Source of the DNA: Aurantimicrobium minutum
GTDB taxonomy: Bacteria; Actinomycetota; Actinomycetes; Actinomycetales; Microbacteriaceae
Assembly (NCBI RefSeq): GCF_029892845.1
Contig: NZ_JARXVT010000001.1
Coordinates: 372,001 to 436,000 of the forward strand
Direction of reading: 5' to 3'
Length of the DNA: 64,000 bases
The position numbers and the translations under genes were made by a program. Positions 27,630-42,091 of this stretch are shown here, piece by piece. The first letter of the stretch is position 1; every line of letters starts with the position of its first letter. The notes below the pieces were generated by a model. It worked only from the letters and a program-made list of their open reading frames with translations, did not search any database and had not been told where the DNA came from.

Positions 27630-28567
27630 TGTTTCACTGGCGCAGTCTGGGTGAGGTTCCTGCTGGGTGGGGGCCAAGTGCGGTCACTATTGGCAAGTTT
27701 GATGGTGTCCACTTAGGTCACGTCGAGATTTTGCGCCAACTCGGTGACATCTCTGCCACCCGTGGACTGAAGTCCACGGTGGTGACGTTTGACCGTCACC
27801 CCGCTTCGTTGCTTTCTCCTGATCAGCTCCCCGCAGACATCCTCTCGACTGAAGATCGTCTGGACTTGATTGATCAAGAAAACATCGATGCCAGCTTGGT
27901 GCTGGCTTTCGATTCGGAACTTGCGAGCTTGAGTCCTCGTGACTTTGTCACCACCATCTTGCTGGGAAAACTCAATACCCAAGTGGTGTTGGTTGGCCAT
28001 GACTTCCGGTTTGGGGACCACGCCTCCGGTGACGTGACAACCCTGCAGGAACTCGGTGCTGAACTTGGCTTTGACGTGGTACTCATCGATGATGTGGCAC
28101 CTGTTGACGGGGTTCGTGTTTCTTCTTCACTTATCCGTCAGCTCATGGCGTCTGGTGATGTCGCCGCAGCGGCAAGACTGCTGGGGCGTCTGCCTCGCGT
28201 CAATGGCGAAGTTGTTCACGGCCACAAACGAGGCCGTGAACTCGGTTTCCCCACGGCAAACCTTTCTCAAGAGGCCACTGGGCTCGTGCCCAGTGACGGT
28301 GTCTACGCTGGGTGGTTCCTAGACGGAGAAGACCGTTTCCCAGCAGCAATCTCTGTGGGCACCAACCCCACCTTTGAAGGTGTGAACAAGCGCACTGTCG
28401 AAGCGTTCTTGATAGATCAGAATCTTGACCTCTATGGCCACGAGGTCACCATCGAGTTCGCAGCTCACATTCGTGGCATGGTTGCCTACACCGGCGTTGA
28501 GCCGTTGATTGAACAAATGCATGACGATGTTCATGTCACCCGAGTGATCCTGGGATTGGGAAAGTAA
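27629..28567 (+). CDS. ribF: Bifunctional riboflavin kinase / FAD synthetase
   Basis: 312 residues; its ATG overlaps the previous TAA. The N-terminal FAD synthetase domain shows TIGKFDGVHLGHVEIL and VVLVGHDFRFG; the C-terminal kinase domain shows HGHKRGRELGFPTANL and GTNPTFEGVNKRTVEAFLID, which bind flavin and ATP. It converts riboflavin to FMN and FAD in the cytoplasm. No FMN riboswitch is visible upstream, as expected since the gene is internal to a transcript. It overlaps the next gene by one base. Confidence 0.96.
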   Translation: MFHWRSLGEVPAGWGPSAVTIGKFDGVHLGHVEILRQLGDISATRGLKSTVVTFDRHPASLLSPDQLPADILSTEDRLDLIDQENIDASLVLAFDSELASLSPRDFVTTILLGKLNTQVVLVGHDFRFGDHASGDVTTLQELGAELGFDVVLIDDVAPVDGVRVSSSLIRQLMASGDVAAAARLLGRLPRVNGEVVHGHKRGRELGFPTANLSQEATGLVPSDGVYAGWFLDGEDRFPAAISVGTNPTFEGVNKRTVEAFLIDQNLDLYGHEVTIEFAAHIRGMVAYTGVEPLIEQMHDDVHVTRVILGLGK

Positions 28568-29433
28568 TGGCTGAAGAATTCGACACCAAGAACGACGACC
28601 TCGGTGAATCCCAGGATGTGGGTGGAGTGAAGGTTGCTGTTGCCCAGTTCGGTCCGGGACCCAACCCTGCAGAGAACGTGAGCACCATCCAAGCGCTGGT
28701 TCACGCTGCTTCTCACAACGGCGCACGCATGATTGTGTTGCCTGAATACTCTTCTGTTCTGGGTGGAAAGCTCGGCGACTGGGTGTTTGAATATGCCGAG
28801 TCCATGGATGGTCCCTTCGTGGAAGCGATGACAGAGCTCGCGGACGAGTGCAACATTGCCATCGTCATTGGCATGCTCGAAAGTTCAGATAACCCCAACG
28901 ATAAGCGCCCCTTCAACACCGCTATTGCGGTGTTGCCAGGCGCTGGTGTCGTGGCGAGATATCGCAAGGTTCACCTCTATGACGCCTTCGACATGCTCGA
29001 AAGCGAATGGATGCAGGCAGGTGACCCCGCTGAAGCACCGCAACTGTTCACGGTGGATGACATCACGGTGGGAATGCAGACCTGCTTTGATTTGCGCTTC
29101 CCTGAAACCACCCGCCGTTTAGTTGATGCAGGTGCGCACATGGTTGCCCTCATCGCTGAGTGGATCTCGGGTCCGAAGAAGGCTCATCACTGGGCCGCGT
29201 TGACCTCTGCTCGTGCCATTGAGAACACGGTTTACCTGGCTGCTGCAGACCAGATTCCTCCCATAGCGGTGGGGATGTCCCGAGTGATTTCTCCTCTCGG
29301 TGAAACCCTCATCGACATGGGTAATCAGATGGGTGTCTCCATCGCCACTGTCAACATTCAGGCTGTCATTGATGCGCGGAAGACGAACCCCTCGCTGGAA
29401 CTTCGTCGATACAGCGTTCAACCCCGCGACTAA
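28567..29433 (+). CDS. Carbon-nitrogen hydrolase (nitrilase superfamily)
   Basis: 288 residues, start codon overlapping the ribF stop. The Glu-Lys-Cys triad of the superfamily is visible: Glu in MIVLPEYSS (~60), Lys in YRKVHLYDAF (~137) and Cys in GMQTCFDLRFPE (~170). These enzymes cleave amides or nitriles. The layout resembles omega-amidase/Nit2-like or deaminated-glutathione-amidase members, but the substrate cannot be set from sequence. A polar N-terminal extension of about 20 residues precedes the domain. It may be expressed with ribF; no metabolic link is evident. Confidence 0.88.
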   Translation: MAEEFDTKNDDLGESQDVGGVKVAVAQFGPGPNPAENVSTIQALVHAASHNGARMIVLPEYSSVLGGKLGDWVFEYAESMDGPFVEAMTELADECNIAIVIGMLESSDNPNDKRPFNTAIAVLPGAGVVARYRKVHLYDAFDMLESEWMQAGDPAEAPQLFTVDDITVGMQTCFDLRFPETTRRLVDAGAHMVALIAEWISGPKKAHHWAALTSARAIENTVYLAAADQIPPIAVGMSRVISPLGETLIDMGNQMGVSIATVNIQAVIDARKTNPSLELRRYSVQPRD

Positions 29434-29461
29434 TGAAGCCTTCAGGCGTAGGGTGAGAACT

Positions 29462-30865
29462 ATGACCACGCTGAAGAAAAAGTCAGAAGCCGCAGCTCTT
29501 GTTGCGTCCCTCCGTGATGCCTATAACTCAGGTTTGACGGCGAAGCGTCAGTGGCGCATCAACCAGCTGAACGCTTTGCGTCAGATGGTGACAGACAATG
29601 AAGGCGTCATCGAGGCAGCACTCTTTTCGGACCTGGGCAAGAGCGCATCTGAAGCGCAGCTGACTGAGATCGGCATCATCTTGGGCGACATCGACTACGC
29701 GCTCAAGAACCTTGCTAGCTGGCTCAAGCCACAAAAGGTCAGTGTTCCTTTGGCGGCAATGCCCGCCAAGGCATTTGTTGTCAGCGAACCTGTGGGCGTG
29801 GCATTGATCATTGCGCCCTGGAACTATCCCATGCAGTTGCTGTTGGCTCCGCTGATCGGCGCTATTGCTTCCGGTAATGCAGCAGTGCTCAAGCCCAGTG
29901 AGTTAGCTCCAGCAACCTCTGCCGCTTTGGCTAAGCTCATTCCTGTCTATCTCGACCCTCGCGCCATTGCCATCGTGGAGGGTGCTGCCGAAGAAACTGG
30001 GTGGCTGCTCGAACAGCACTATGACCACATTTTCTACACCGGTAATGGTCGCGTGGGCCGCATCGTGATGGAGGCGGCAGCGAAGAATCTCACTCCTGTC
30101 TCACTTGAGCTTGGTGGAAAGTCGCCGATCTATATCGATGACACTGTTGACCTTGAAGCAGCTGCGTTACGCATTGCCTGGGCTAAATATCTCAACGCAG
30201 GTCAGACCTGCGTGGCACCGGACTACATCTTGGCCACAGCTTCTGTTCAGCATGAACTCGAAGCACATCTCGTTTCTGCCATTGCTGCGCTCTATGGGGC
30301 AGATCCTCTTCAGTCAGCGGACTATGGCCGAATCATCAACGACAACCACTTTGCTCGTCTGAATGGGTATCTGAAAGACGGACGCGTCGTCGCTGACGGC
30401 AAGCCGGTAGCGAAAACTCGCTACATCCCACCGACAGTCTTGGCAGATGTGAAGCGGGATGCTCCCGTGATGCAGGAAGAAATCTTTGGGCCCATTTTGC
30501 CCATGATTACGGTGACAGACCTCGATGACGCCATCGACTTCATCAACTCCAGGTCAAAGCCCCTGGCGCTCTATGTGTTCAGCGAGAACACTTTGGTTCG
30601 TCGTGCTTTCACCGAGCGCACCAGCTCCGGCGCTATTGGATTTAATGTGGCCATTCTGCATTTGAGTGTTCCAGGACTGCCCTTCGGTGGCGTGGGGGAG
30701 AGCGGCATTGGTGCCTACCGCGGCAAGCGCTCCTTCGATGCGTTTAGTCATGAGAAAGCCATCTTGTCGAAACCCCTCAAGCCAGAAACTCTGGCTTTGG
30801 TCTATCCGCCTTTTACGGAATCCAAGAAGAAGCTCATCAAGGGATTGCTTCGGAAACTGAGCTAA
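29462..30865 (+). CDS. Aldehyde dehydrogenase (class 3-like)
   Basis: 467 residues from the ATG at 29462; the longer in-frame opening overlaps the hydrolase gene. Motifs: IIAPWNYPMQLLLAPLIGAIASGN, SLELGGKSPIYIDD with the catalytic-base Glu, and NAGQTCVAPDY with the nucleophilic Cys. Length and the C-terminal hydrophobic/basic tail (KKLIKGLLRKLS) match the class 3/fatty-aldehyde type that uses NAD(P). The substrate is probably a medium-chain or aromatic aldehyde. It is distinct from the ALDH at 36792-38150, which belongs to a catabolic operon. Confidence 0.92.
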   Translation: MTTLKKKSEAAALVASLRDAYNSGLTAKRQWRINQLNALRQMVTDNEGVIEAALFSDLGKSASEAQLTEIGIILGDIDYALKNLASWLKPQKVSVPLAAMPAKAFVVSEPVGVALIIAPWNYPMQLLLAPLIGAIASGNAAVLKPSELAPATSAALAKLIPVYLDPRAIAIVEGAAEETGWLLEQHYDHIFYTGNGRVGRIVMEAAAKNLTPVSLELGGKSPIYIDDTVDLEAAALRIAWAKYLNAGQTCVAPDYILATASVQHELEAHLVSAIAALYGADPLQSADYGRIINDNHFARLNGYLKDGRVVADGKPVAKTRYIPPTVLADVKRDAPVMQEEIFGPILPMITVTDLDDAIDFINSRSKPLALYVFSENTLVRRAFTERTSSGAIGFNVAILHLSVPGLPFGGVGESGIGAYRGKRSFDAFSHEKAILSKPLKPETLALVYPPFTESKKKLIKGLLRKLS

Positions 30866-30894
30866 CGAATTGTCCGAATAGCCGGACGCCTTCC

Positions 30895-30924
30895 TTGTTC
30901 GTGCCCGAATGACCGTTCTAGACT
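30895..30924 (+). promoter_or_regulatory. Promoter upstream of aspA
   Basis: TTGTTC (30895-30900), 18-nt spacer, TAGACT (30919-30924); the start should fall near 30931, giving a leader of about 40 nt before the GTG at 30972. A small hairpin GTCCG/CGGAC (30872-30887) precedes it and may end the upstream ALDH transcript. Confidence 0.45.
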
Positions 30925-30971
30925 CGAGTCGACCCACAAAGTCCTTAACACAGCAATGGAGCTGATAACCA

Positions 30972-32474
30972 GTGTCTGAACAGACCACACCATCAACCCG
31001 TCCTATCGATACTCTCGGTCTTTCTTCCACCGATCGTGTGGGTAACTTCGCCGGTAATGCTCAGATGCCCATCGCACCTGTTGCAACGCGCACTGAAACA
31101 GACTCACTGGGAGCAATGCAAGTTCCCGCTGATGCCTACTGGGGTGTTCACACCGCTCGTGCTCTGGAAAACTTCCCTATCGCCAAGCGTCCCATCTCGG
31201 TATTCCCTGAGCTCATCGTGGGCTTGGCCTGCGTGAAGCAGGCAGCTGCTCGTGCCAACGCCGAGATTGGCGTCCTGGACCAGGCCAAGGCAGACATGAT
31301 TGACCGCGTCTGCCAAGAAATCATTGACGGTGCCTGGCACGAACAGTTCGTCGTGGGTGTCATTCAAGGTGGTGCTGGAACCAGCACCAACATGAACGCT
31401 AACGAGGTCATCGCAAACCGCTGCCTCGAACTCATGGGCCACGCAAAGGGCGCGTATGAACACATGCACCCCATCGATGACGTGAACAAGTCACAGTCAA
31501 CCAATGACACCTATCCCACCGCGGTGAAGCTCTCACTCGCATTCTCGCTGCCACACTTGCTCAACGAGTTGAGCTTGTTGCGAGACGCGTTCAATGCCAA
31601 GGGTGAAGAGTTCAAGCACATCCTCAAGGTGGGCCGTACCCAGATGCAGGACGCTGTTCCGATGACCTTGGGTCAGGAATTCCATGGCTTTGGCACCACC
31701 CTCGGTGAAGACTATGACCGTCTCACCGAGACTGTCTGGATGCTCAGCGAAATTAACCTGGGTGCTACTGCTATTGGCACCGGCATTACTGCAGATCCTC
31801 GTTACCGCGAGGCAGCCGTGCGCCACTTGGCCATCATCTCTGGTCTCGACATCACCAGCGCGCCTGACCTCATTGAGGCCACCAGCGACGCCGGTGGATT
31901 CATGAGCTTCTCGGGAACACTCAAGCGCTCAGCGATCAAGCTCTCCAAGATCAGCAATGACCTCCGCCTGCTCTCCTCTGGACCGCAAGCAGGTTTTGGC
32001 GAAATCAACCTTCCTGCTCAGCAGGCAGGTTCATCGATCATGCCTGGCAAGGTCAACCCGGTTATTCCTGAAGCAGTCAGTCAGGTGGCCTATGCCATCG
32101 CAGGTAATGACGTCACGGTGACTATGGCTGCCGAGGGTGGACAGCTTCAGCTCAATGCTTTCGAGCCTGTGATTGCCTACTCACTCCTGCAGGGCATTAG
32201 CTGGCTTGCCCAGGCCTGCATGACACTGCGTGTGAACTGTGTTGTGGGAATCACTGCCAACGTGGAGCGCCTCGAGGGCATGGTTGCCTCGAGTGTCGGT
32301 GTCATCACTGCACTGATTCCATTTATTGGTTACGGTCCAGCTGCAGAGCTGGCCAAGCAGGCACTCAAGACAGGTCGCCCCGTAGCTGACCTCGTCGTTG
32401 AAGCTGGCCTGATGACCAAAGAAGATGTCATGCGCGAGCTCTCGCCCGCCAAGATTTCAGGAATGGAAGCCTAG
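30972..32474 (+). CDS. aspA: Aspartate ammonia-lyase
   Basis: 500 residues from GTG at 30972, with GGAG upstream. The fumarase/aspartase signature GSSIMPGKVNPVIPE near residue 355, VGRTQMQDAVPMTLGQEF and GVHTARALENFPI mark it as aspartase rather than fumarase. It converts L-aspartate to fumarate and ammonium. The N terminus is about 35 residues longer than E. coli AspA; an internal ATG at 31065 would give a normal-length protein but has a poor ribosome-binding site. The low-complexity start (QTTPSTRPIDT) looks unstructured. Confidence 0.94.
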   Translation: MSEQTTPSTRPIDTLGLSSTDRVGNFAGNAQMPIAPVATRTETDSLGAMQVPADAYWGVHTARALENFPIAKRPISVFPELIVGLACVKQAAARANAEIGVLDQAKADMIDRVCQEIIDGAWHEQFVVGVIQGGAGTSTNMNANEVIANRCLELMGHAKGAYEHMHPIDDVNKSQSTNDTYPTAVKLSLAFSLPHLLNELSLLRDAFNAKGEEFKHILKVGRTQMQDAVPMTLGQEFHGFGTTLGEDYDRLTETVWMLSEINLGATAIGTGITADPRYREAAVRHLAIISGLDITSAPDLIEATSDAGGFMSFSGTLKRSAIKLSKISNDLRLLSSGPQAGFGEINLPAQQAGSSIMPGKVNPVIPEAVSQVAYAIAGNDVTVTMAAEGGQLQLNAFEPVIAYSLLQGISWLAQACMTLRVNCVVGITANVERLEGMVASSVGVITALIPFIGYGPAAELAKQALKTGRPVADLVVEAGLMTKEDVMRELSPAKISGMEA

Positions 32475-33893: not shown

Positions 33894-35165
33894 TTAGGCA
33901 GCGCGTGCTGCTTTCTTGGCTAATTGGCGTTTCACCAGCGTCACAATTACCGCAATGACAGCCACGCCGACGGTGAAGAGCACGTTCGGGCCATTCAAGA
34001 CCAACAGCACGATGGTCATGGCCAGTGCCACAACGGCAACCCACCAGTCCCAGGTCCAGCGAGGGAAGATCAGCACTGCTGCCGTCATGCCCAGTACATA
34101 GATGGCCACCATCGAACTCAGGTGGATGGGAATCAAGCTGAGAAGTTGGAAGTCTTGGGCAAACAAGATGGCAAAGAAGATGATGGAAATTCCCAATGAC
34201 AGCGCCAAGCTTCTGCGGGGGACTTCATCAGGCTCTGCACCCTTGGCGAAATAGCGGGGGAGATCTCCGTCACGTCCCAGAGAGGCACCGAGCTTGCCAA
34301 TGGCTGCCAGATAGGCGTTGAGCACGCCCAGAGACACAATCGCCGCAATGCTCGCGATGATGATCGAACCAGCCTTAGGTGCGGTTTCATTCACCAGGGT
34401 CAGCAGCGGAACGCTGCCCTTGCCGGCATCTTCGCCGAGAACACCAATCGTGACCCATTGCAGAGCCAGATAGGCGGTTCCCACAATGACCAGGGCAATA
34501 CCGGTGGCAATAGGGATGGTCTTGCGAGGGTTCTTGAACTCAGCTGCGATGTGGGTGCCGACTTCCCAGCCGGCGAATGCCCACACAAACAAGCTGATCG
34601 CCACCCCCACACCAACCCAACCATGGGGCATGAAGGGCTGGAAGCTGTTTTCCTGCACGGCAGGAGCGCCATAGGCAATCACGCCAACGACAACAACCAC
34701 AAGAAGTGCGCTGAGGCCTAGCTGAACCCAGCCAGCAACCTTCACCCCGAACAGGTTCAAGGTGAATGGAACCAGGAAGAGAACGGCGGCAACTGCGGGC
34801 AGGAGAGAGCGGTCGGCGCCGGTGATGGCAACCACATATTCGGCTCCCATGACGGCAACCACCGGTTCACCAGCGGCAACGCCGAAGTAAAAGAGGTAGC
34901 CAGCTACCCGGGCCCAGGTGTTTCCCATGGACTTGCGCACATAGCTGGCCACACCGCCGGAATCGGGATAGCGGGCAGCTAGTGCGGCAAAGGTTCCTGC
35001 CAAGGGAATGGACAATACAAAGATGATCGCGACAGAGAGGATTGAAGCGGGTCCTGCAACCTGCGCTGCTAAGCCGGGGAGAACCAAGATGCCGGTGCCG
35101 AGCACGCTGGCGATATAGAGGGCAGTTCCCTGGGCAATGCCGAGGGTGCCTTTGTGTTCACTCAC
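33894..35165 (-). CDS. APC-superfamily amino acid/amine permease
   Basis: 423 residues with about 12 hydrophobic segments. The first span has ALYIASVLGTGILVLPGL, the substrate-binding GTGI-type break of APC transporters, and the layout resembles the YjeH-like branch. It is the last gene of a six-gene minus-strand operon for a gamma-glutamylated amine (18 nt after the GntR-type gene). It may import the amine or export a product such as an amino acid. A separate ethanolamine-type permease is encoded on the other side of the cluster, so this one may have a different substrate. Confidence 0.88.
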   Translation of the reverse strand: MSEHKGTLGIAQGTALYIASVLGTGILVLPGLAAQVAGPASILSVAIIFVLSIPLAGTFAALAARYPDSGGVASYVRKSMGNTWARVAGYLFYFGVAAGEPVVAVMGAEYVVAITGADRSLLPAVAAVLFLVPFTLNLFGVKVAGWVQLGLSALLVVVVVGVIAYGAPAVQENSFQPFMPHGWVGVGVAISLFVWAFAGWEVGTHIAAEFKNPRKTIPIATGIALVIVGTAYLALQWVTIGVLGEDAGKGSVPLLTLVNETAPKAGSIIIASIAAIVSLGVLNAYLAAIGKLGASLGRDGDLPRYFAKGAEPDEVPRRSLALSLGISIIFFAILFAQDFQLLSLIPIHLSSMVAIYVLGMTAAVLIFPRWTWDWWVAVVALAMTIVLLVLNGPNVLFTVGVAVIAVIVTLVKRQLAKKAARAA

Positions 35166-35183
35166 AGATTTACTCTGCCATGT

Positions 35184-35954
35184 TTAGCCAAGGAAGCCAC
35201 GAAGCAGGGCTGCAGAGCCTGATACGTGGTCTGCCATAGCTGCACTGGCTTTGTCACCATCACCGGTGAGTATTGCTAACACGATGGCTTCGTGTTGTTC
35301 ATTCGAGTGTGAAATGTTAGGTGGCAACAAGGGGATGCCGTCCAGAAGTTCATTCAGACGCATGCGTGAGGTTGCCACTTGTGACAGCAATGAAGGAGAA
35401 CCGGTCAATTCCGCAATCAACAAGTGGAGTCGTGAATCGAGCATGCGGTAATTCTCTGAAGATGCTTCTGCTGTCTCTTGGAGTACTGCCCAGAGTTGTT
35501 CTCGCTCTACCGAACTCAGGCTTCGAGTTGCTGCATGTTGAGCTGCGCCGCATTCGAGGATTTCTCGCAGAATGAGGACATCTTCTAGCTCATCGTGAGT
35601 GAAATCCACGTGATGGGTCAGTTCACCATCGCGGCCCATGCGTAATGGCTTTTCGGGCAGGGTTTCAGAGACGAACGTACCGCCATAGCGTCCACGCTTC
35701 ACCACAAGGTAGCCCGCATCCACGAGCGAAGAGATTGCTAAGCGAACGGTGTCCCGGCTCACATCCAGCATCGTGGCCAACTCCCGTTCTGGTGGGAACT
35801 GAACACCTGGCAGGGCTAGCCCTAAGCGGATGGTTTGGAGTAAACGCTCTACCGTTTCCTCATAGGTATTCCCGCCCCGGACAGGCCGAAGTAACAAGTC
35901 CCCATTGAGAGGGCTTGTTACCGCGGCCAGTCCGGTTTGGATGTCAGGTGACAT
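35184..35954 (-). CDS. GntR-family regulator, FadR/FCD type
   Basis: 256 residues. Winged helix at about 30-100 (FPPERELATMLDVSRDTVRLAISSLVDAGYLVVKRGRYGGTF is the characteristic stretch, positions in the gene about 35650-35850) and an alpha-helical FCD domain after ~120 (LEDVLILREILECGAA). FCD domains bind small carboxylates or amino compounds, often with a metal. Located inside the operon between the SDR and permease genes (11 and 18 nt spacing), it most probably represses the operon until the amine or a glutamylated intermediate is present. Confidence 0.92.
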   Translation of the reverse strand: MSPDIQTGLAAVTSPLNGDLLLRPVRGGNTYEETVERLLQTIRLGLALPGVQFPPERELATMLDVSRDTVRLAISSLVDAGYLVVKRGRYGGTFVSETLPEKPLRMGRDGELTHHVDFTHDELEDVLILREILECGAAQHAATRSLSSVEREQLWAVLQETAEASSENYRMLDSRLHLLIAELTGSPSLLSQVATSRMRLNELLDGIPLLPPNISHSNEQHEAIVLAILTGDGDKASAAMADHVSGSAALLRGFLG

Positions 35955-35965
35955 TGGAGGTGGTG

Positions 35966-36760
35966 TTAGTCCAGAGGGGTGACGTAGGCAGAAGAAATGC
36001 CGCCATCAACCAAGAAGGTTGAACCGGTAATGAAGGAAGAGTCATCACTGGCGAGGAAGGCAACAGCAGCTGCAAGTTCCTCAGGCTTTGCAAAGCGACC
36101 AACTGGGATGTGCACCAGTCGACGCTGCGCGCGCTCGGGGTCCTTAGCGAAGAGCTCCTGGAGCAGAGGAGTGTTGACTGGTCCAGGGCACAAAGCGTTG
36201 ACGCGGATGCCCTGGCGAGCAAACTGCACACCCAGCTCGCGGCTCATGGCAAGAACGCCACCCTTGGAAGCGGTGTAGGAGATCTGCGAGGTAGCAGAAC
36301 CCATCACTGCAACGAAAGACGCCGTGTTGATGATGGAGCCACTTTGCTGCTTCACCATGTGACGCAGTGCAGCACGTGAACAGAGGTAGACCGACTTGAG
36401 GTTGACGTCTTGAACTTTGTTCCATGCAGGAAGCTCAGTGGTTTCAATCGAGTCGTCATCGGGTGGTGAGATACCAGCGTTGTTGAAGGCGATGTCGACA
36501 GAGCCATAAACCTTGAAAGCAGTGTCAAAGAGGTTGTTCACCTGATCTTCGTCTGTGACGTCAGCGCGAACATAGAGGCCACCGACTTCAGCAGCTGCCT
36601 TTTCGCCTGCTTCTTGGGGAGCGACGTCGCCAATGACGACGGTGGCACCTTCAGCTGCGAAGCGCTTAGCAGTGGCAAACCCAATACCGCTTGCGCCACC
36701 GGTAATGACAGCAACCTTGCCGGCAAGACGCTGGGTGAGGTCAATCTTTTCGATACTCAT
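35966..36760 (-). CDS. Short-chain dehydrogenase/reductase, proposed amino-alcohol-adduct dehydrogenase
   Basis: 264 residues. TGGASGIGFATAKRF (NAD-binding), NNAGISPPDD, and the catalytic Ser...YTASK are clear; the family is often labelled 3-oxoacyl-ACP reductase by homology. A strong AGGAG precedes the ATG. In this operon the ligase, ALDH and GATase need an enzyme that turns a gamma-glutamylated amine into an aldehyde. Polyamine operons use the flavin oxidase PuuB; none is here. An SDR instead could oxidise the hydroxyl of gamma-glutamylethanolamide, which is why I propose that role. That assignment is inference from context. Confidence 0.85.
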   Translation of the reverse strand: MSIEKIDLTQRLAGKVAVITGGASGIGFATAKRFAAEGATVVIGDVAPQEAGEKAAAEVGGLYVRADVTDEDQVNNLFDTAFKVYGSVDIAFNNAGISPPDDDSIETTELPAWNKVQDVNLKSVYLCSRAALRHMVKQQSGSIINTASFVAVMGSATSQISYTASKGGVLAMSRELGVQFARQGIRVNALCPGPVNTPLLQELFAKDPERAQRRLVHIPVGRFAKPEELAAAVAFLASDDSSFITGSTFLVDGGISSAYVTPLD

Positions 36761-36791
36761 TGTTTTTCTCCTTAGTGAGGTTGTTCAGGTC

Positions 36792-38150
36792 TTAGTCGGC
36801 AGGAATGAAGACGTTTTTGGTTTCGGTGAAAGCCAATGCCGCATCTGGACCGAGCTCGCGGCCCAGTCCTGACTGCTTGAAGCCACCGAAGGGGGTGTTG
36901 TATCGGACGGAAGAGTGTGAGTTCACGGAAAGGTTTCCAGACTCGACGCCGCGAGAAATACGCAGTGCACGTCCCACGTCACGGGTCCAAATAGATCCTG
37001 AAAGGCCGTACTCTGTTGCATTCGCCAGTTCCATAGCGTCTGCATCGTCGTCAAACGGAAGCACGGTGACGACTGGACCAAAGATCTCGTCCGTTGCACT
37101 GATGTGGTTGCGCGAATCAGGAGTCAGCACAGTGGGGGCGAACCAGTAGCCAGCACCTTCGGGGGCAAAACCGCGGAAAGCAACGGGAGCATCGCTGGGC
37201 ACGTAGGAAGAAACGCTGTCGAAGTGCTTCTTGTGAACCAAGGGACCCATCTCTGTAGCTTCATCGAGAGGGTTACCTACCTTGACGCCTTTGACGGCTG
37301 GTTCGAGGTATTCCATGAACTTGTCATAGGCACTGCGCTGAACCAAGATTCGGCTGCGGGCACAGCAGTCCTGGCCTGCATTTTCGAAGACACCATAGGG
37401 AGCGCTTGCAGCTGCTTTCTCGAGGTCTGCATCTGCGAACACAATATTGGCGCTCTTGCCACCCAATTCCAGAGTCACGCGCTTGATCTGATCAGCGGCA
37501 CCCGCCATGATGCGCTTGCCCACTGCGGTGGAGCCAGTGAAGACAACCTTGCGCACGGTGGGGTTGGTAACGAAACGTTCTCCCACGACAGAACCCTGAC
37601 CGGGCAGGACCTGGAATAGTCCTTCAGGAAGTCCTGATTGCAGGGCTAGCTCACCCAAGCGAATACTGGTGAGAGGAGTCCACTCAGCAGGCTTCAGGAC
37701 AACGGCATTACCGGCTGCAAGGGCTGGAGCAAAACCCCAGGATGCAATAGTCATCGGGAAGTTCCACGGGGTAATCACACCGACAACACCGAGAGGTTCT
37801 TGGAAGGTGAAGTCAATGCCACCGGCAACGGGAATCTGCTTGCCAAAGAGCCGTTCGGGCGTGGCTGAGTAATACTCGAGCACGTTTCTCACATGCTCTG
37901 CTTCCCAGCGTGCCTGGCCAATGGGGTGGCCGGAGTTGCGAACCTCGAGCTGGGCGAGGTTTTCAATATCGCCATCTACGGCATCAGCGAAAAGACGAAG
38001 AGCTACAGCACGGTCAGCCGGGTTTCTTGCAGCCCATTCTTTCTGTGCACGCTTGGCAAGATCAATTGCCTCATCTGTTTGTTCCAGGCTCAGGTGCTCA
38101 ATGGTTTCGCCCGCTTCTTCGGTGGCGGGGTTGATGATGGTGTAACTCAC
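36792..38150 (-). CDS. Aldehyde dehydrogenase of the gamma-glutamylation operon
   Basis: 452 residues from GTG at 38150 (sharing GTGA with the preceding stop). Motifs: VITPWNFPMTIASWGFAPALAAGN, TLELGGKSANIVFADADLE (Glu base) and ENAGQDCCARSRI (catalytic Cys). It resembles PuuC/betaine-aldehyde-type NAD(P)-dependent enzymes. In the proposed route it would oxidise gamma-glutamyl-aminoacetaldehyde to gamma-glutamylglycine; for putrescine it would make gamma-glutamyl-GABA. Tight coupling to the GATase gene upstream supports a shared pathway. Confidence 0.92.
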   Translation of the reverse strand: MSYTIINPATEEAGETIEHLSLEQTDEAIDLAKRAQKEWAARNPADRAVALRLFADAVDGDIENLAQLEVRNSGHPIGQARWEAEHVRNVLEYYSATPERLFGKQIPVAGGIDFTFQEPLGVVGVITPWNFPMTIASWGFAPALAAGNAVVLKPAEWTPLTSIRLGELALQSGLPEGLFQVLPGQGSVVGERFVTNPTVRKVVFTGSTAVGKRIMAGAADQIKRVTLELGGKSANIVFADADLEKAAASAPYGVFENAGQDCCARSRILVQRSAYDKFMEYLEPAVKGVKVGNPLDEATEMGPLVHKKHFDSVSSYVPSDAPVAFRGFAPEGAGYWFAPTVLTPDSRNHISATDEIFGPVVTVLPFDDDADAMELANATEYGLSGSIWTRDVGRALRISRGVESGNLSVNSHSSVRYNTPFGGFKQSGLGRELGPDAALAFTETKNVFIPAD

Positions 38151-38917
38151 GATGAGCTCCTTTGAGTGTTGCGGGGGTGGTGGTGGGCATATTCTTTTGC
38201 TGCATCCACCAGGCCTTCAAAGAGGCCTATGTCTTCGGGGGTTTGTTCTGGGTGCCATTGCACGGCAAGGCCGAACGGAACGTCATCTAGTTGGAGTGCT
38301 TCAATCACTCCGTCCTCAGTGGAGGCAACAACGCTGAGGCCTTCGCCGAGCTCACCAATTGCTTGGTGGTGATACATGGCGCCCACGGGGGCTTCATTGC
38401 CCAGAACAGAGGCAAGGAGTGAATCTTCAGCAACCTTCACAGGAATGTGACTGAAGTTGCCTTGACCTTTTTGGTAGCGGTCATCTCCGACAACTTCGGG
38501 GAGGTGTTGAATCAGGTCGCCACCACGGATCACATTCAGCATCTGCGCACCGCGGCAAATACCAAGAAAAGGCAGTTCTCGATTAATCGCCGCCGTCAGG
38601 AGTGCATCCTCGAGAGCATCACGATCTGGCCTGGGCTCATCTGTCAATGGGTGAGGCGTCTGTCCATAACGGGCAGGATCAACGTCTTTACCGCCACAGA
38701 TAATCAATCCATCTAACCCGTCCAGAATGGTCTCAGCGCTTTCCGCATCGATGGCCTGTGGGGGGAGAAGAACGGCAATGCCGCCTGCTTTGTTCACGGC
38801 GTTGAAATACACCTTCGGCAAGAAGGCAGCTTGAACATCCCAGACGCCTGACTGGGCTTGTTCTAGGTAGGTGGTGAGCCCGATAACGGGTTTGCGGTTA
38901 GAGACGCTCGAAGCCAC
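38147..38917 (-). CDS. Class I glutamine amidotransferase-like gamma-glutamyl hydrolase (PuuD-like)
   Basis: 256 residues from the GTG at 38917, chosen because GGGAG lies 7 nt upstream; a GTG at 38923 is also possible and the start lies inside the end of the ligase gene. Catalytic motifs: FLGICRGAQMLNVI with the nucleophilic Cys and VQWHPEQTPED with His-Glu. PuuD cleaves the gamma-glutamyl bond of gamma-glutamyl-GABA; relatives act on other gamma-glutamyl amino acids. Here it would release glutamate and the end product (glycine if the substrate is ethanolamine). Confidence 0.9.
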   Translation of the reverse strand: MASSVSNRKPVIGLTTYLEQAQSGVWDVQAAFLPKVYFNAVNKAGGIAVLLPPQAIDAESAETILDGLDGLIICGGKDVDPARYGQTPHPLTDEPRPDRDALEDALLTAAINRELPFLGICRGAQMLNVIRGGDLIQHLPEVVGDDRYQKGQGNFSHIPVKVAEDSLLASVLGNEAPVGAMYHHQAIGELGEGLSVVASTEDGVIEALQLDDVPFGLAVQWHPEQTPEDIGLFEGLVDAAKEYAHHHPRNTQRSSS

Positions 38918-40265
38918 GAACACGCTCCCAGTCAGTAATGGCAGAGTCATAGGCAGCAACTTCAATACGTGCGTAGTTGAGGTAGTGATCAACAACGTCC
39001 TGTCCGAAAGCTTCCTTGGCAATGGTTGAGTTGGCAAACAGCTCAGCTGCATCACGCAGGCTTGAGGGGACGCGTGGTGCACCTCCGGTGTAGGCGTTGC
39101 CTGTGGTGAGCGGCTCGAGTTCGAGCTCGTTTTCAATACCGTGCAATCCTGCAGCAATCAGTGCAGCTACTGCGAGGTACTGGTTCACATCTCCACCCGG
39201 TACGCGTTGCTCCACACGCATGCCGTGACCTTGTCCGACTACACGAAGTGAGCACGTGCGGTTATCTAAGCCCCACGCAACTGCGGTGGGAGCGAAGCTG
39301 CCATCGACATAGCGCTTGTACGAGTTGATGTTGGGAGCGAAGAACAGGGAGAGTTCACGCATTGCAGCAATTTGGCCAGCCAAGAAGTGGCGGAACATCT
39401 TGCTCATGCCGTGTTCTGCGTTCTTGTCTGCGAAGACAGGGTTGCCGTCTGTATCGCGCAAGCTGATGTGAATGTGGCACGAGTTACCCTCACGCTCATT
39501 GAACTTCGCCATGAAGGTCAATGACTTGCCGTGCTTATCGGCGATCACTTTGGCACCGCTCTTGTAAACGGAGTGGTTGTCACAGGTGACGAGTGCCTCG
39601 TCATAACGGAAGGCAATTTCCTGCTGGCCGAGGTTGCACTCACCCTTGACGCCCTCGCAATACATGCCGGCAGCATCCATCGAATTGCGGATGTCTCGAA
39701 GCAACGGTTCAACACGGGTTGAAGCGAGCAGGTCGTAGTCGACGTTGTAGTCGGTGGAGGGGCGCAGGTTGTCGTATCCCTTGGCCCAGGCTTCACGGTA
39801 GGTGTCGTCAAAGACGATGAATTCAAGCTCGGTGCCCACAAAGGGGACCAGGCCATGTTTGGCCAGGCGGTTGATCTGGGTGCGCAAGATTTCACGAGGA
39901 GACTGCATGACAGGGGAGTGGTCAAGCCATTGCATATCTGCCATCACCATGGCAGTGCCTTCAAGCCAGGGAGCCGTGCGCAGGGTGCTCATGTCGGGGA
40001 TCATGGCCATATCTCCATAACCACGTTCCCAGCTAGAGATGGAGTAGCCATCTACGGTGTTGTTTTCGACATCTACCGCAAAGAGATAGTTACAGCACTC
40101 GGCGCCGTGCGCCATCACGTCCTCCACGAAGAGGCGAGCTGAAACACGCTTACCCACCAAGCGGCCTTGCATATCGGTGAAGGAGACGATGACAGTGTCA
40201 ATCGTTCCGGCTTCAACCAGGGCTTTGAGGCCTTCTGCGGTGAGGTTCCCAGCTGCAGTGGACAT
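38898..40265 (-). CDS. Glutamine synthetase-like gamma-glutamylamine ligase
   Basis: 455 residues from the ATG at 40265 (MSTAAGN; the upstream in-frame ATG adds a non-homologous piece). The GS fold is recognisable: LEFIVFDDTYREAW, a Glu/His metal site in EGNSCHIHISLRD, and a late GHGMRVEQRVPGGDVNQYLAVAAL. The nucleotide-loop and ammonia-site sequences differ from true GlnA (SCHIHISL replaces the usual GSGMHVHQSL), which is typical for PuuA and the Streptomyces GlnA2/3/4 enzymes that glutamylate amines at ATP cost. It is the first gene of the operon. Ethanolamine is the favoured substrate from context; polyamines are the alternative. Confidence 0.9.
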   Translation of the reverse strand: MSTAAGNLTAEGLKALVEAGTIDTVIVSFTDMQGRLVGKRVSARLFVEDVMAHGAECCNYLFAVDVENNTVDGYSISSWERGYGDMAMIPDMSTLRTAPWLEGTAMVMADMQWLDHSPVMQSPREILRTQINRLAKHGLVPFVGTELEFIVFDDTYREAWAKGYDNLRPSTDYNVDYDLLASTRVEPLLRDIRNSMDAAGMYCEGVKGECNLGQQEIAFRYDEALVTCDNHSVYKSGAKVIADKHGKSLTFMAKFNEREGNSCHIHISLRDTDGNPVFADKNAEHGMSKMFRHFLAGQIAAMRELSLFFAPNINSYKRYVDGSFAPTAVAWGLDNRTCSLRVVGQGHGMRVEQRVPGGDVNQYLAVAALIAAGLHGIENELELEPLTTGNAYTGGAPRVPSSLRDAAELFANSTIAKEAFGQDVVDHYLNYARIEVAAYDSAITDWERVRGFERL

Positions 40266-40491
40266 TGTCACTCTCTTCCTTGAGGTAGGTATTCCAACCA
40301 TTAGACCACTCTATTGAAGATTCCGTGTCAAGCGTTCTTGGGTAAATAGCAGATATTTTTCAGATTAATTATTTGTTAAAGGTAGTTACAAGAACCAATT
40401 TGAGGCATATAGTCATCTCCAAGGAATCTCACAGTGTTGTGTGCCTCACCTCGAACCTGGGGGTGCTCAACCCGAGCAGAAGGAAATCTCA
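40266..40491. promoter_or_regulatory. Divergent A+T-rich promoter region of the amine-utilisation cluster
   Basis: 226 nt separate the divergent ligase and permease genes and must hold both promoters. The centre (about 40340-40410) is strongly A+T-rich. A TATAGT at 40408-40413 could be a -10 for the permease; the direct repeat TGGTCTAATGGT (minus strand, near 40300) resembles half sites of FadR-type regulators, but I see no clean palindrome. Joint control by the operon's own GntR protein is plausible. Confidence 0.45.
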
Positions 40492-42033
40492 ATGTCCAAA
40501 GACACTTTGAACGTCTCGGGTGTGACGTACACAACCGCAGACGCCAACTATTTCAAGAAACGGACGCTCAAGCGTTCGGCTGGTTTGTGGGGTCTCTGGG
40601 GCCTTGCCGTCGCTGCCGTGGTCTCCGGAGACTTCTCCGGTTGGAACTTCGGTATCGGCTTTGCCGGCTTTGGCGGAATGCTGATCGCATTCGCCGTCCT
40701 CATCTTCATGTACTACGGAATGATGTTCAGCATTGGAGAGATGGCGGGAGCCATGCCTCACTCTGGTGGAGCATATTCATTCGCCCGATCGGCAATGGGG
40801 CCGTGGGGTGGATTTATTACCGGTCTCGCTGAAACGATTGAGTATGTCGCAACCACAGCCGTGGTTGTCTTCTTCTCGGCGTCCTATGCCAATAGTGTGA
40901 CCAGTGAACTCTTAGGGCTGAACCTGCCCATGTTCGTCTGGTACATCATTCTGTACGCGGTATTCGTGCTGCTGAACTCTGCCGGCTCCGCTGTCTCCTT
41001 CAAGTTCGCCATTGTGGTGTCCATCATCTCAATCGCTATCTTGCTGGTGTTCTCTGTCATGGCTGTCTTCTCGGGCAAACTTGACTTCAACTCCCTCTGG
41101 AACATCGCGCCAGATGCAGGACAGTCCACCTTCCTTCCTCACGGCTGGGTGCCCATCCTGTTTGCACTTCCCTACGCCATGTGGTTCTTCCTGGGTATTG
41201 AGGAACTTCCTCTTGCTGCTGAAGAATCTCACGACCCCGTCAAGGACATTCCTCGTGCAGGTCTGATTGCTCGCACCACGCTGATTGTGACTGGTCTGCT
41301 GGTTCTGTTCCTCAACACCGCCCTCGTTGGCGCTGAAGGAATCAGCGCTGCAGGCGAGCCATTGCTTGATGGCTTCCGTGCCATGGTCGGTGACGGTGCT
41401 GCTGCCGTGCTCGCACTCTTCGCGTTGATTGGTCTGCTTGCTTCCCTGCAGGGAATCATGTTCGCCTACGGTCGCAACATGTACTCACTCTCCCGAGCTG
41501 GTTACTACCCCAAGGTCCTGTCTTTGACAGGCAAGCGAGAGACTCCTTACGTTGCTTTGACTGTTGGTGCAGTCATTGGTTTCTTGGCCCTTATCGCTGT
41601 TGACTCCCTGGGTGGAGCAAGTGGTGTTGCGGGAGCTATCGTGCTCAACATCGCTGTATGGGGTGCTGTTATTGCCTACATCCTGCAAATGGTCTCCTTT
41701 GTGATCCTGCGCAAGAAGTTCCCCAAGGCCAACCGTCCTTACAAGAGCCCCTGGGGAGTACCCGGTGCTGTTATTGCGGCGATTGTGTCCCTGGCAATCT
41801 TCTTCGGATTCTTCATCAATGAGCCCGCTCGCCCAGCCATCGTCGCCATTGCGGTTATTTACGCACTGATGTTGATTGGCTTTGCGCTCTGGGGCCGCAA
41901 GCGCCTCGTGCTCTCACCCGAAGAGGAATACGCCGTCTCAGGTGGTCTCCACGGAGATCCTCAGAAAGAAGGCTACGGCGGAAAGATAGAGAAGGAACTT
42001 CTCGCTTCCGACGGAGTCGACGGAGAAAAGTAA
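40492..42033 (+). CDS. Ethanolamine-type permease (APC superfamily)
   Basis: 513 residues from the ATG at 40492 (AGAAGGAAA upstream). About 12 membrane spans. The start (TLKRSAGLWGLWGLAVAAVVSGDFSGWNFG), GEMAGAMPHSGGAYSFAR, and AETIEYVATTAVVVFFSASYA match my recollection of the ethanolamine permease branch rather than PuuP. It should take up ethanolamine or a similar small amine with protons. The gene is divergent from the glutamylation operon and probably shares its regulator. A strong terminator follows. The C-terminal tail (~480-513) is charged and cytoplasmic. Confidence 0.85.
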   Translation: MSKDTLNVSGVTYTTADANYFKKRTLKRSAGLWGLWGLAVAAVVSGDFSGWNFGIGFAGFGGMLIAFAVLIFMYYGMMFSIGEMAGAMPHSGGAYSFARSAMGPWGGFITGLAETIEYVATTAVVVFFSASYANSVTSELLGLNLPMFVWYIILYAVFVLLNSAGSAVSFKFAIVVSIISIAILLVFSVMAVFSGKLDFNSLWNIAPDAGQSTFLPHGWVPILFALPYAMWFFLGIEELPLAAEESHDPVKDIPRAGLIARTTLIVTGLLVLFLNTALVGAEGISAAGEPLLDGFRAMVGDGAAAVLALFALIGLLASLQGIMFAYGRNMYSLSRAGYYPKVLSLTGKRETPYVALTVGAVIGFLALIAVDSLGGASGVAGAIVLNIAVWGAVIAYILQMVSFVILRKKFPKANRPYKSPWGVPGAVIAAIVSLAIFFGFFINEPARPAIVAIAVIYALMLIGFALWGRKRLVLSPEEEYAVSGGLHGDPQKEGYGGKIEKELLASDGVDGEK

Positions 42034-42048
42034 CTCAGAAATACAACA

Positions 42049-42080
42049 GGGGCCGGTTCCTTCGGGAGCCGGCCCTTTTC
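42049..42080 (+). terminator. Rho-independent terminator after the ethanolamine-type permease
   Basis: GGGCCGG plus TTCC (42050-42060), TTCG tetraloop, then GGAG plus CCGGCCC (42065-42075) and CTTTTC-like tail. An 11-bp stem with one G-U pair and a stable UUCG loop. Confidence 0.9.
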
Positions 42081-42085
42081 TCTGC

Positions 42086-42091
42086 CAGAAT
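42086..42091 (+). promoter_or_regulatory. -10 element of the FKBP gene
   Basis: CAGAAT ends 6 nt before the ATG at 42098; no Shine-Dalgarno is present, so initiation is probably leaderless. It falls directly after the preceding terminator. Confidence 0.35.

Follow-up and report, generated by a model that had tools for sequence, protein, structure and literature searches.

The closest described relative of the system considered here is the glnA4 cluster of Streptomyces coelicolor (SCO1610–SCO1615). According to the paper that describes it (PMC6529630), the ligase GlnA4 (SCO1613) makes gamma-glutamylethanolamide in vitro, a glnA4 mutant fails on ethanolamine, and EpuRI (SCO1614) represses glnA4; a short-chain dehydrogenase/reductase (SDR, SCO1611), an aldehyde dehydrogenase (ALDH, SCO1612) and a hydrolase (SCO1615) are proposed for the later steps, with glycine and glutamate as end products. 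EpuRI binds the glnA4 and epuRI promoters in gel shifts, as stated in a further paper (PMC8998196). Here we describe a gene cluster in a 64,000-nucleotide stretch of Aurantimicrobium minutum (NZ_JARXVT010000001.1, positions 372,001–436,000; the window, to whose numbering all window coordinates refer), which is very probably a cassette of the Streptomyces glnA4 type that gamma-glutamylates ethanolamine. This membrane-lipid component is a common source of nitrogen, and no free acetaldehyde arises on the glutamylation route. Streptomyces is where the pathway was first set out; the additions made here are a candidate operator and the cassette edges.

In terms of layout, open reading frames (ORFs) and family searches place six minus-strand genes in series from 40265 downward, with overlaps or gaps of at most 31 bases. 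The first encodes a glutamine synthetase-like (GS-like) ligase (38898–40265; Pfam Gln-synt_C), a putative GlnA4-like gamma-glutamylethanolamide synthetase of 455 residues that begins with the ATG at 40265, with an alternative, longer ORF start at 40301. It is overlapped by the gene of a PuuD-like class-I glutamine amidotransferase (GATase; 38147–38917; Peptidase_C26, 210 bits), the proposed gamma-glutamylglycine hydrolase, which is itself overlapped by that of an ALDH (36792–38150; Aldedh, 506 bits) proposed to convert the gamma-glutamyl aldehyde to gamma-glutamylglycine. An SDR (35966–36760), proposed to be an NAD-dependent gamma-glutamylethanolamide dehydrogenase, follows after 31 bases, an EpuRI-like regulator with GntR and FCD domains (35184–35954) after a further 11, and an APC permease (33894–35165; best NCBIfam match PRK11021, below its cut-off) after 18. 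Divergent from the ligase, on the plus strand, lies an Eat-like APC permease (40492–42033), the proposed ethanolamine importer, whose best NCBIfam match is TIGR00908 (ethanolamine permease). A sequence-only reading of this DNA had described the six minus-strand genes as one operon facing an ethanolamine-type permease; the ligase, GATase, ALDH, SDR and regulator are confirmed in place, as is the divergent permease, and the co-directional permease is the part that does not stand, being resident in genus mates without the cluster.

The SDR passes the NF004713 equivalog model (497 versus a cut-off of 404 bits), and Ser148, Tyr162, Lys166 and Asp45 are invariant in nine aligned SDRs; an aspartate at the position of Asp45 goes with NAD preference. 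The NF004713 name, "3-oxoacyl-ACP reductase", is probably a misnomer for the cluster SDR, and the comparison suggests that this database name and "gamma-glutamyl-gamma-aminobutyrate hydrolase" are misleading for such genes. In the ligase, an alignment read by eye indicates that the residues for metal, glutamate and phosphate, as named in PMC6529630, are retained and that F324, in "GSFAPT", takes the place of the E327-flap acid. The ligase structure predicted from an eight-row alignment is too poor for fold comparison (mean pLDDT 38.8, pTM 0.32). At Rfam gathering thresholds the window contains one tRNA only and no riboswitch match, and a viral-contig scan for the ligase returned no match.

For comparison with Streptomyces, a published reverse-transcription (RT) primer was scanned in the genome collection, yielding 25 loci, 16 of them with the cluster; of these, 15 are named Streptomyces and one "Actinobacteria bacterium OV320", and S. 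coelicolor itself is not among them. The S. coelicoflavus locus (L071) matches six published primers for SCO1612, SCO1613 and SCO1614 with 0–1 mismatches, the two glnA4 RT primers exactly. Identity to the proteins of this locus is 73% for the SDR, 64% for the ALDH, 63% for the ligase (about 447 residues), 48% for the regulator and 43% for the hydrolase; against the regulators of 15 Streptomyces-type loci, the regulator is 47–49% identical. Because these five proteins are orthologous to those of the glnA4-type S. coelicoflavus locus, the window cluster is a member of the published pathway proposal and is thereby linked to a CHARACTERISED locus, that of glnA4 in S. coelicolor. The gamma-glutamylethanolamide route favoured by the sequence-only reading gains support from this five-gene orthology and from a candidate operator that appears common to both (described below). 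The arrangement differs: in the window the regulator and hydrolase genes lie within the enzyme operon and a permease is divergent, whereas in the Streptomyces loci the regulator and hydrolase genes are opposite to the ligase, and S. coelicolor itself, unlike the window, has no permease gene (PMC6529630).

The linkage of the cluster genes is beyond chance. In a set of 60 genomes, which includes that of A. minutum, a ligase with 57% identity or more is present in 21, in one case as fragments. Besides the window's own there are 20 loci, and ligase, GATase and ALDH are linked in all of them and the SDR in 19; in the twentieth, where the SDR is not seen, the contig ends inside the ALDH gene. The regulator is seen in 16 of the 20 and an Eat-like permease divergent from the ligase in 10. 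Across 296 genomes of the phylum, the ligase (E ≤ 1e-130) occurs in 60, the SDR (E ≤ 1e-80) in 52 and both in 45 (Fisher p < 1e-31, a descriptive value as the genomes are related). Conservation of the SDR had been named beforehand as a check, and it is borne out: of the 41 phylum genomes whose ligase reaches 56% identity, 38 have the SDR, and of the 43 ligase copies in them 36 have it no more than 10 kb away. Among ligase copies below 56% identity, an SDR is linked in 7 of 20 at the same threshold.

In the proposed pathway, ethanolamine would enter through the Eat-like permease and be joined to glutamate by the ligase, with ATP, to form gamma-glutamylethanolamide, a reaction shown for the S. 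coelicolor orthologue. The SDR would oxidize the alcohol of this product to the aldehyde, the ALDH would convert the aldehyde to gamma-glutamylglycine, and the PuuD-like hydrolase would release glutamate, to be recycled, and glycine, which may feed the glycine cleavage system. The EpuRI-orthologous GntR/FCD regulator would repress both divergent promoters through palindromic operators until an inducer binds. We infer the substrate of the ligase in A. minutum and the chemistry of the SDR, ALDH and hydrolase from sequence comparison; in Streptomyces the steps after the ligase rest on prediction, and the comparison supports them independently of the published work. The Eut ammonia-lyase pathway acts on the same presumed substrate; EutB has no match in the A. 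minutum genome (the E. coli control was matched), and no free acetaldehyde would be expected. That genome encodes two GDPD-family proteins, which could release ethanolamine from lipid, neither near the cluster, and a glycine-cleavage P-protein, likewise not near it.

Glycine as an end product, which the sequence-only reading had put forward, is supported by the occurrence of glycine-cleavage genes near the cluster in three families. Of 50 loci examined (20 and 30), six have a P-protein gene at a distance of about 5 kb or less from the cluster, namely L111, L112, L114 and L116 of family f34, L120 of f69 and L053 of f8; two other f34 loci, L113 and L115, show no P-protein near the cluster. In L116 Pfam assigns P1, P2, T and H proteins, and in L120 T, P1 and P2 proteins together with a PuuD-like hydrolase in a single minus-strand run. 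The full-length P-protein of L053 was also confirmed by Pfam, and L114 was read by eye.

Several observations weigh against the assignment to ethanolamine. TIGR00908 is the top match of the Eat-like permease, yet its cut-off is missed (326.4 versus 381.75 bits). No SDR reaches the threshold in G197, G264 and G315, although their ligases are at least 56% identical, and 7 of the 43 ligase copies are without a linked SDR (on another contig in three, at 18 kb in one, none found in three). Ligases of 49–52% identity are found in other contexts, with aminotransferases, and, because similar ligases sit in such contexts, membership of the ligase family does not by itself name the substrate. One alternative, which we consider improbable, is that the cluster degrades another amino alcohol, such as alaninol, 1-amino-2-propanol or 3-aminopropanol, by the same logic of ligase, alcohol, aldehyde and hydrolase. 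The SDR and ALDH would suit such substrates, the alignments did not single out one pocket specificity, and an isopropylamine/alaninol route with a GS-like ligase is known; against this, the ligase is orthologous to an ethanolamine ligase, with neighbours and regulator conserved, and the glycine-cleavage genes near the cluster in three families fit a two-carbon product. Less probable still is a polyamine pathway of the Puu type, in which the ligase would make gamma-glutamylputrescine for oxidation and hydrolysis to gamma-aminobutyrate. The E. coli Puu putrescine pathway shares gamma-glutamylation, an ALDH and a class-I GATase hydrolase with the cluster, the hydrolase and ALDH being of the same broad families as PuuD and PuuC. 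However, that pathway uses a flavin oxidase, and, as the sequence-only reading had noted, family searches find no such PuuB-like oxidase among the cluster proteins, where an SDR is conserved instead; DAO-family matches number 11 elsewhere in the genome, the sole one on the same contig being about 90 kb from the cluster. The equivalog cut-offs for gamma-glutamylputrescine synthetase (197 of 650 bits), PuuC (330 of 850) and PuuD (100 of 266) are all missed, and the S. coelicolor GlnA4 is reported in PMC6529630 not to be a gamma-glutamylpolyamine synthetase.

A third alternative keeps the ethanolamine pathway as stated and counts the co-directional permease (33894–35165) as part of it, for example as an exporter of surplus glycine. 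This permease lies 18 bases from the regulator in the window and adjoins the regulator in all five cluster-bearing genus mates. However, in two of the seven genus mates (G004 and G005), in neither of which the orthologous ligase was found, the APC permease (96% and 90% identity) is kept in place at the cluster site, directly beside an FKBP-like gene (named by eye), and the interval between the two genes contains no match to the ligase, GATase, ALDH, SDR or regulator. Among the loci of the 20 relatives the permease is linked in five, all of the same genus, and it was not found in the other 15 (E ≤ 1e-10, overlapping weaker matches removed). Because mates without the cluster keep the permease in place, we regard it as genomic background outside the cassette, and its participation as unlikely.

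With the permease set aside, the ethanolamine cassette spans about 35181–42087, as estimated from comparison with the empty sites of G004 and G005, and within the genus it is present or absent as one unit; gain and loss are both possible. At its edges the comparison places two plus-strand copies of the octamer CTCTGCCA, the left at 35173–35180 and the right at 42080–42087, and in the alignment the octamer occurs once in the empty site of G004 and with 7 of 8 bases in that of G005. The right copy reads CTCTGACA in three of the five genus mates with the cluster, and in those three the left edge was not found using the one anchor; for these two reasons the octamer repeat is not leaned on. Between the Eat-like permease and the FKBP-like gene, a GC-rich hairpin with a T run (42049–42080, by eye), a likely terminator, is kept in the five genus mates seen.

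An alignment of the divergent intergenic regions reveals a conserved block, the palindrome AAAGGT-N10-ACCAAT at 40378–40399, which is a candidate operator (O1) of the EpuRI-like regulator. It covers the −35 element of the predicted permease promoter, a promoter-like GTTACA-17-TATAGT at 40385–40413. A weaker candidate with one mismatch, O2 (40281–40302, minus strand), adjoins an extended −10-like element, TGGTCTAAT (40300–40308), of the ligase, and its counterpart is perfect in L040 and L106. The strict form WWWGGT-N10/11-ACCWWW matches once in the 64 kb, at O1, compared with a mean of 0.24 per window in 100 dinucleotide shuffles. A 22-base matrix built from the Streptomyces-type sites ranks O1 second in the 64 kb, beneath a site in a coding region, and O1 is for this reason based on the arms pattern and its conserved position and not on the matrix. 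A TTGTWNNWACAA-type operator was also considered and rejected, with 38 matches against 45 expected and thus no excess. A literature search on GlnA4, GntR and operators in Streptomyces and passages of PMC6529630 and PMC8998196 yielded no EpuRI operator motif, and on that basis the operator seems undescribed; the palindrome supplies a concrete operator to test for EpuRI.

Ten of the 14 loci of the window's own family (f1; L035–L045, L049, L052 and L054) have one strict match upstream of the ligase (5/5 genus mates and 5/9 from other genera), and the Streptomyces-type loci that cover the interval, which are close relatives, have one between ligase and regulator in 15 of 15. In these Streptomyces-type loci the second-best matrix score always falls just past the regulator, before the hydrolase gene (the hydrolase of L078 is outside the stretch covered). 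In 30 further loci the strict site is present in 6/6 with a linked regulator of at least 46% identity, three of which share the genus code of probable Streptomyces genomes, in 1/3 with a regulator of 35–38%, and in 0/21 without a regulator. When the sets are pooled, the site occurs in 12/12 loci with a regulator of at least 54% (besides the window), in 18/18 Streptomyces-type loci, and in 1/25 loci where no regulator is seen, the one being L042, a locus cut off by the end of its contig. In 621 kb the strict form has 31 matches and two control arm patterns have 0 and 1; the controls have 0 in the 30 further loci. In L050 the strict site lies 1.7 kb upstream of the regulator, and L048 and L051 have neither regulator nor site.

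Other loci weigh against the candidate operator. No strict site upstream of the ligase was found in L049, L052 and L054, own-family loci with a linked regulator (L054 has one far from the ligase), or in L041, whose contig ends before any regulator; none was found in L046, L047 and L053, which are of other families and have a regulator, although the upstream regions of L047 and L053 contain matrix matches. In the six loci of these that lack the site and have a linked regulator (L041 aside), the latter is 42–51% identical, and in the pooled set the strict site occurs in 2 of 10 loci with other regulators of 35–51%. The regulator of the window is 48% identical to that of S. coelicoflavus and the palindrome is common to both, and several loci with a related regulator are without the strict site. 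Within the A. minutum genome the N10 pattern has 6 sites, compared with 3 for a backwards control; a regulon outside the cluster cannot be claimed. On balance we lean slightly towards the notion of a portable actinobacterial module from ethanolamine to glycine with its own switch, in which Streptomyces, the window's family and one other family would have an EpuRI-type regulator and WWWGGT-N10/11-ACCWWW in common, the separately transcribed hydrolase gene of Streptomyces would be marked by a weaker second copy, and some families would extend the module by the glycine cleavage system, in one run from ethanolamine to one-carbon units.

The same logic is found in proteobacteria with an unrelated dehydrogenase and hydrolase. 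In Phaeobacter, phosphorylethanolamine induces four pathway enzymes and the ethanolamine-binding EtoX, according to PMC10132767, in which the operon of Phaeobacter MED193, and those of Chromohalobacter and Agrobacterium cited there, have the same order of steps. Plasmid records with a homologous ligase number 67, and twelve neighbourhoods were read. Four of these plasmids (Paracoccus, Aminobacter and two Ruegeria; ligase 43–50%) carry the ligase and an ALDH; an iron-containing alcohol dehydrogenase substitutes for the SDR and an N-formylglutamate amidohydrolase for the GATase in 4/4, with a TRAP transporter in 2/4 and an RpiR regulator in 3/4. The window cluster, by contrast, has an SDR, a Peptidase_C26 hydrolase and an APC permease, and among 30 other phylum loci no iron-containing alcohol dehydrogenase, N-formylglutamate amidohydrolase or TRAP transporter was reported (E ≤ 1e-12). 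An Arthrobacter plasmid carries the full set of ligase, GATase, ALDH and SDR; Thermomicrobium has the ligase, an SDR and an annotated ethanolamine permease side by side, and Allomeiothermus the ligase with an SDR and an ALDH. The remaining contexts are a ligase with aminotransferases (Rhizobium and Paenarthrobacter plasmids), with a GATase and no adjoining ALDH or dehydrogenase (Paraburkholderia), as two copies with SDR genes and no ALDH (Rhodococcus), and with a permease only (Streptomyces plasmid). On the Aminobacter plasmid (L093, 10022–13347) the proteobacterial version sits beside bhcRABC, genes of the glyoxylate-linked beta-hydroxyaspartate cycle.

The gene immediately after the cluster SDR is, in one family, of the PALP (cysteine-synthase-like) type, identified by Pfam in L116 (5102–6043) and by eye in L114 (4959–5906), L112 (4864–5808), L111 (5089–6069) and L113 (12996–13937). 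The A. minutum genome (G000, contig C1; L088, 6401–17960) encodes another GS-like ligase together with an APC permease, three class-I GATase-like proteins, a P450, an ALDH (by eye), a LigB-type extradiol dioxygenase and an FAA hydrolase, a set that resembles a gamma-glutamylation route for an aromatic amine ending in ring cleavage. A further GS-like ligase, of 35–36% identity, is encoded by three genus mates (G003, G004 and G007), and in G003 (L089, 13048–14391) it lies near ALDH- and alcohol dehydrogenase-like ORFs (by eye). Elsewhere in the window (28567–32474, by eye), a nitrilase-type hydrolase ORF is followed directly by an ALDH ORF and then by an aspartase/fumarase-like ORF at 30972.

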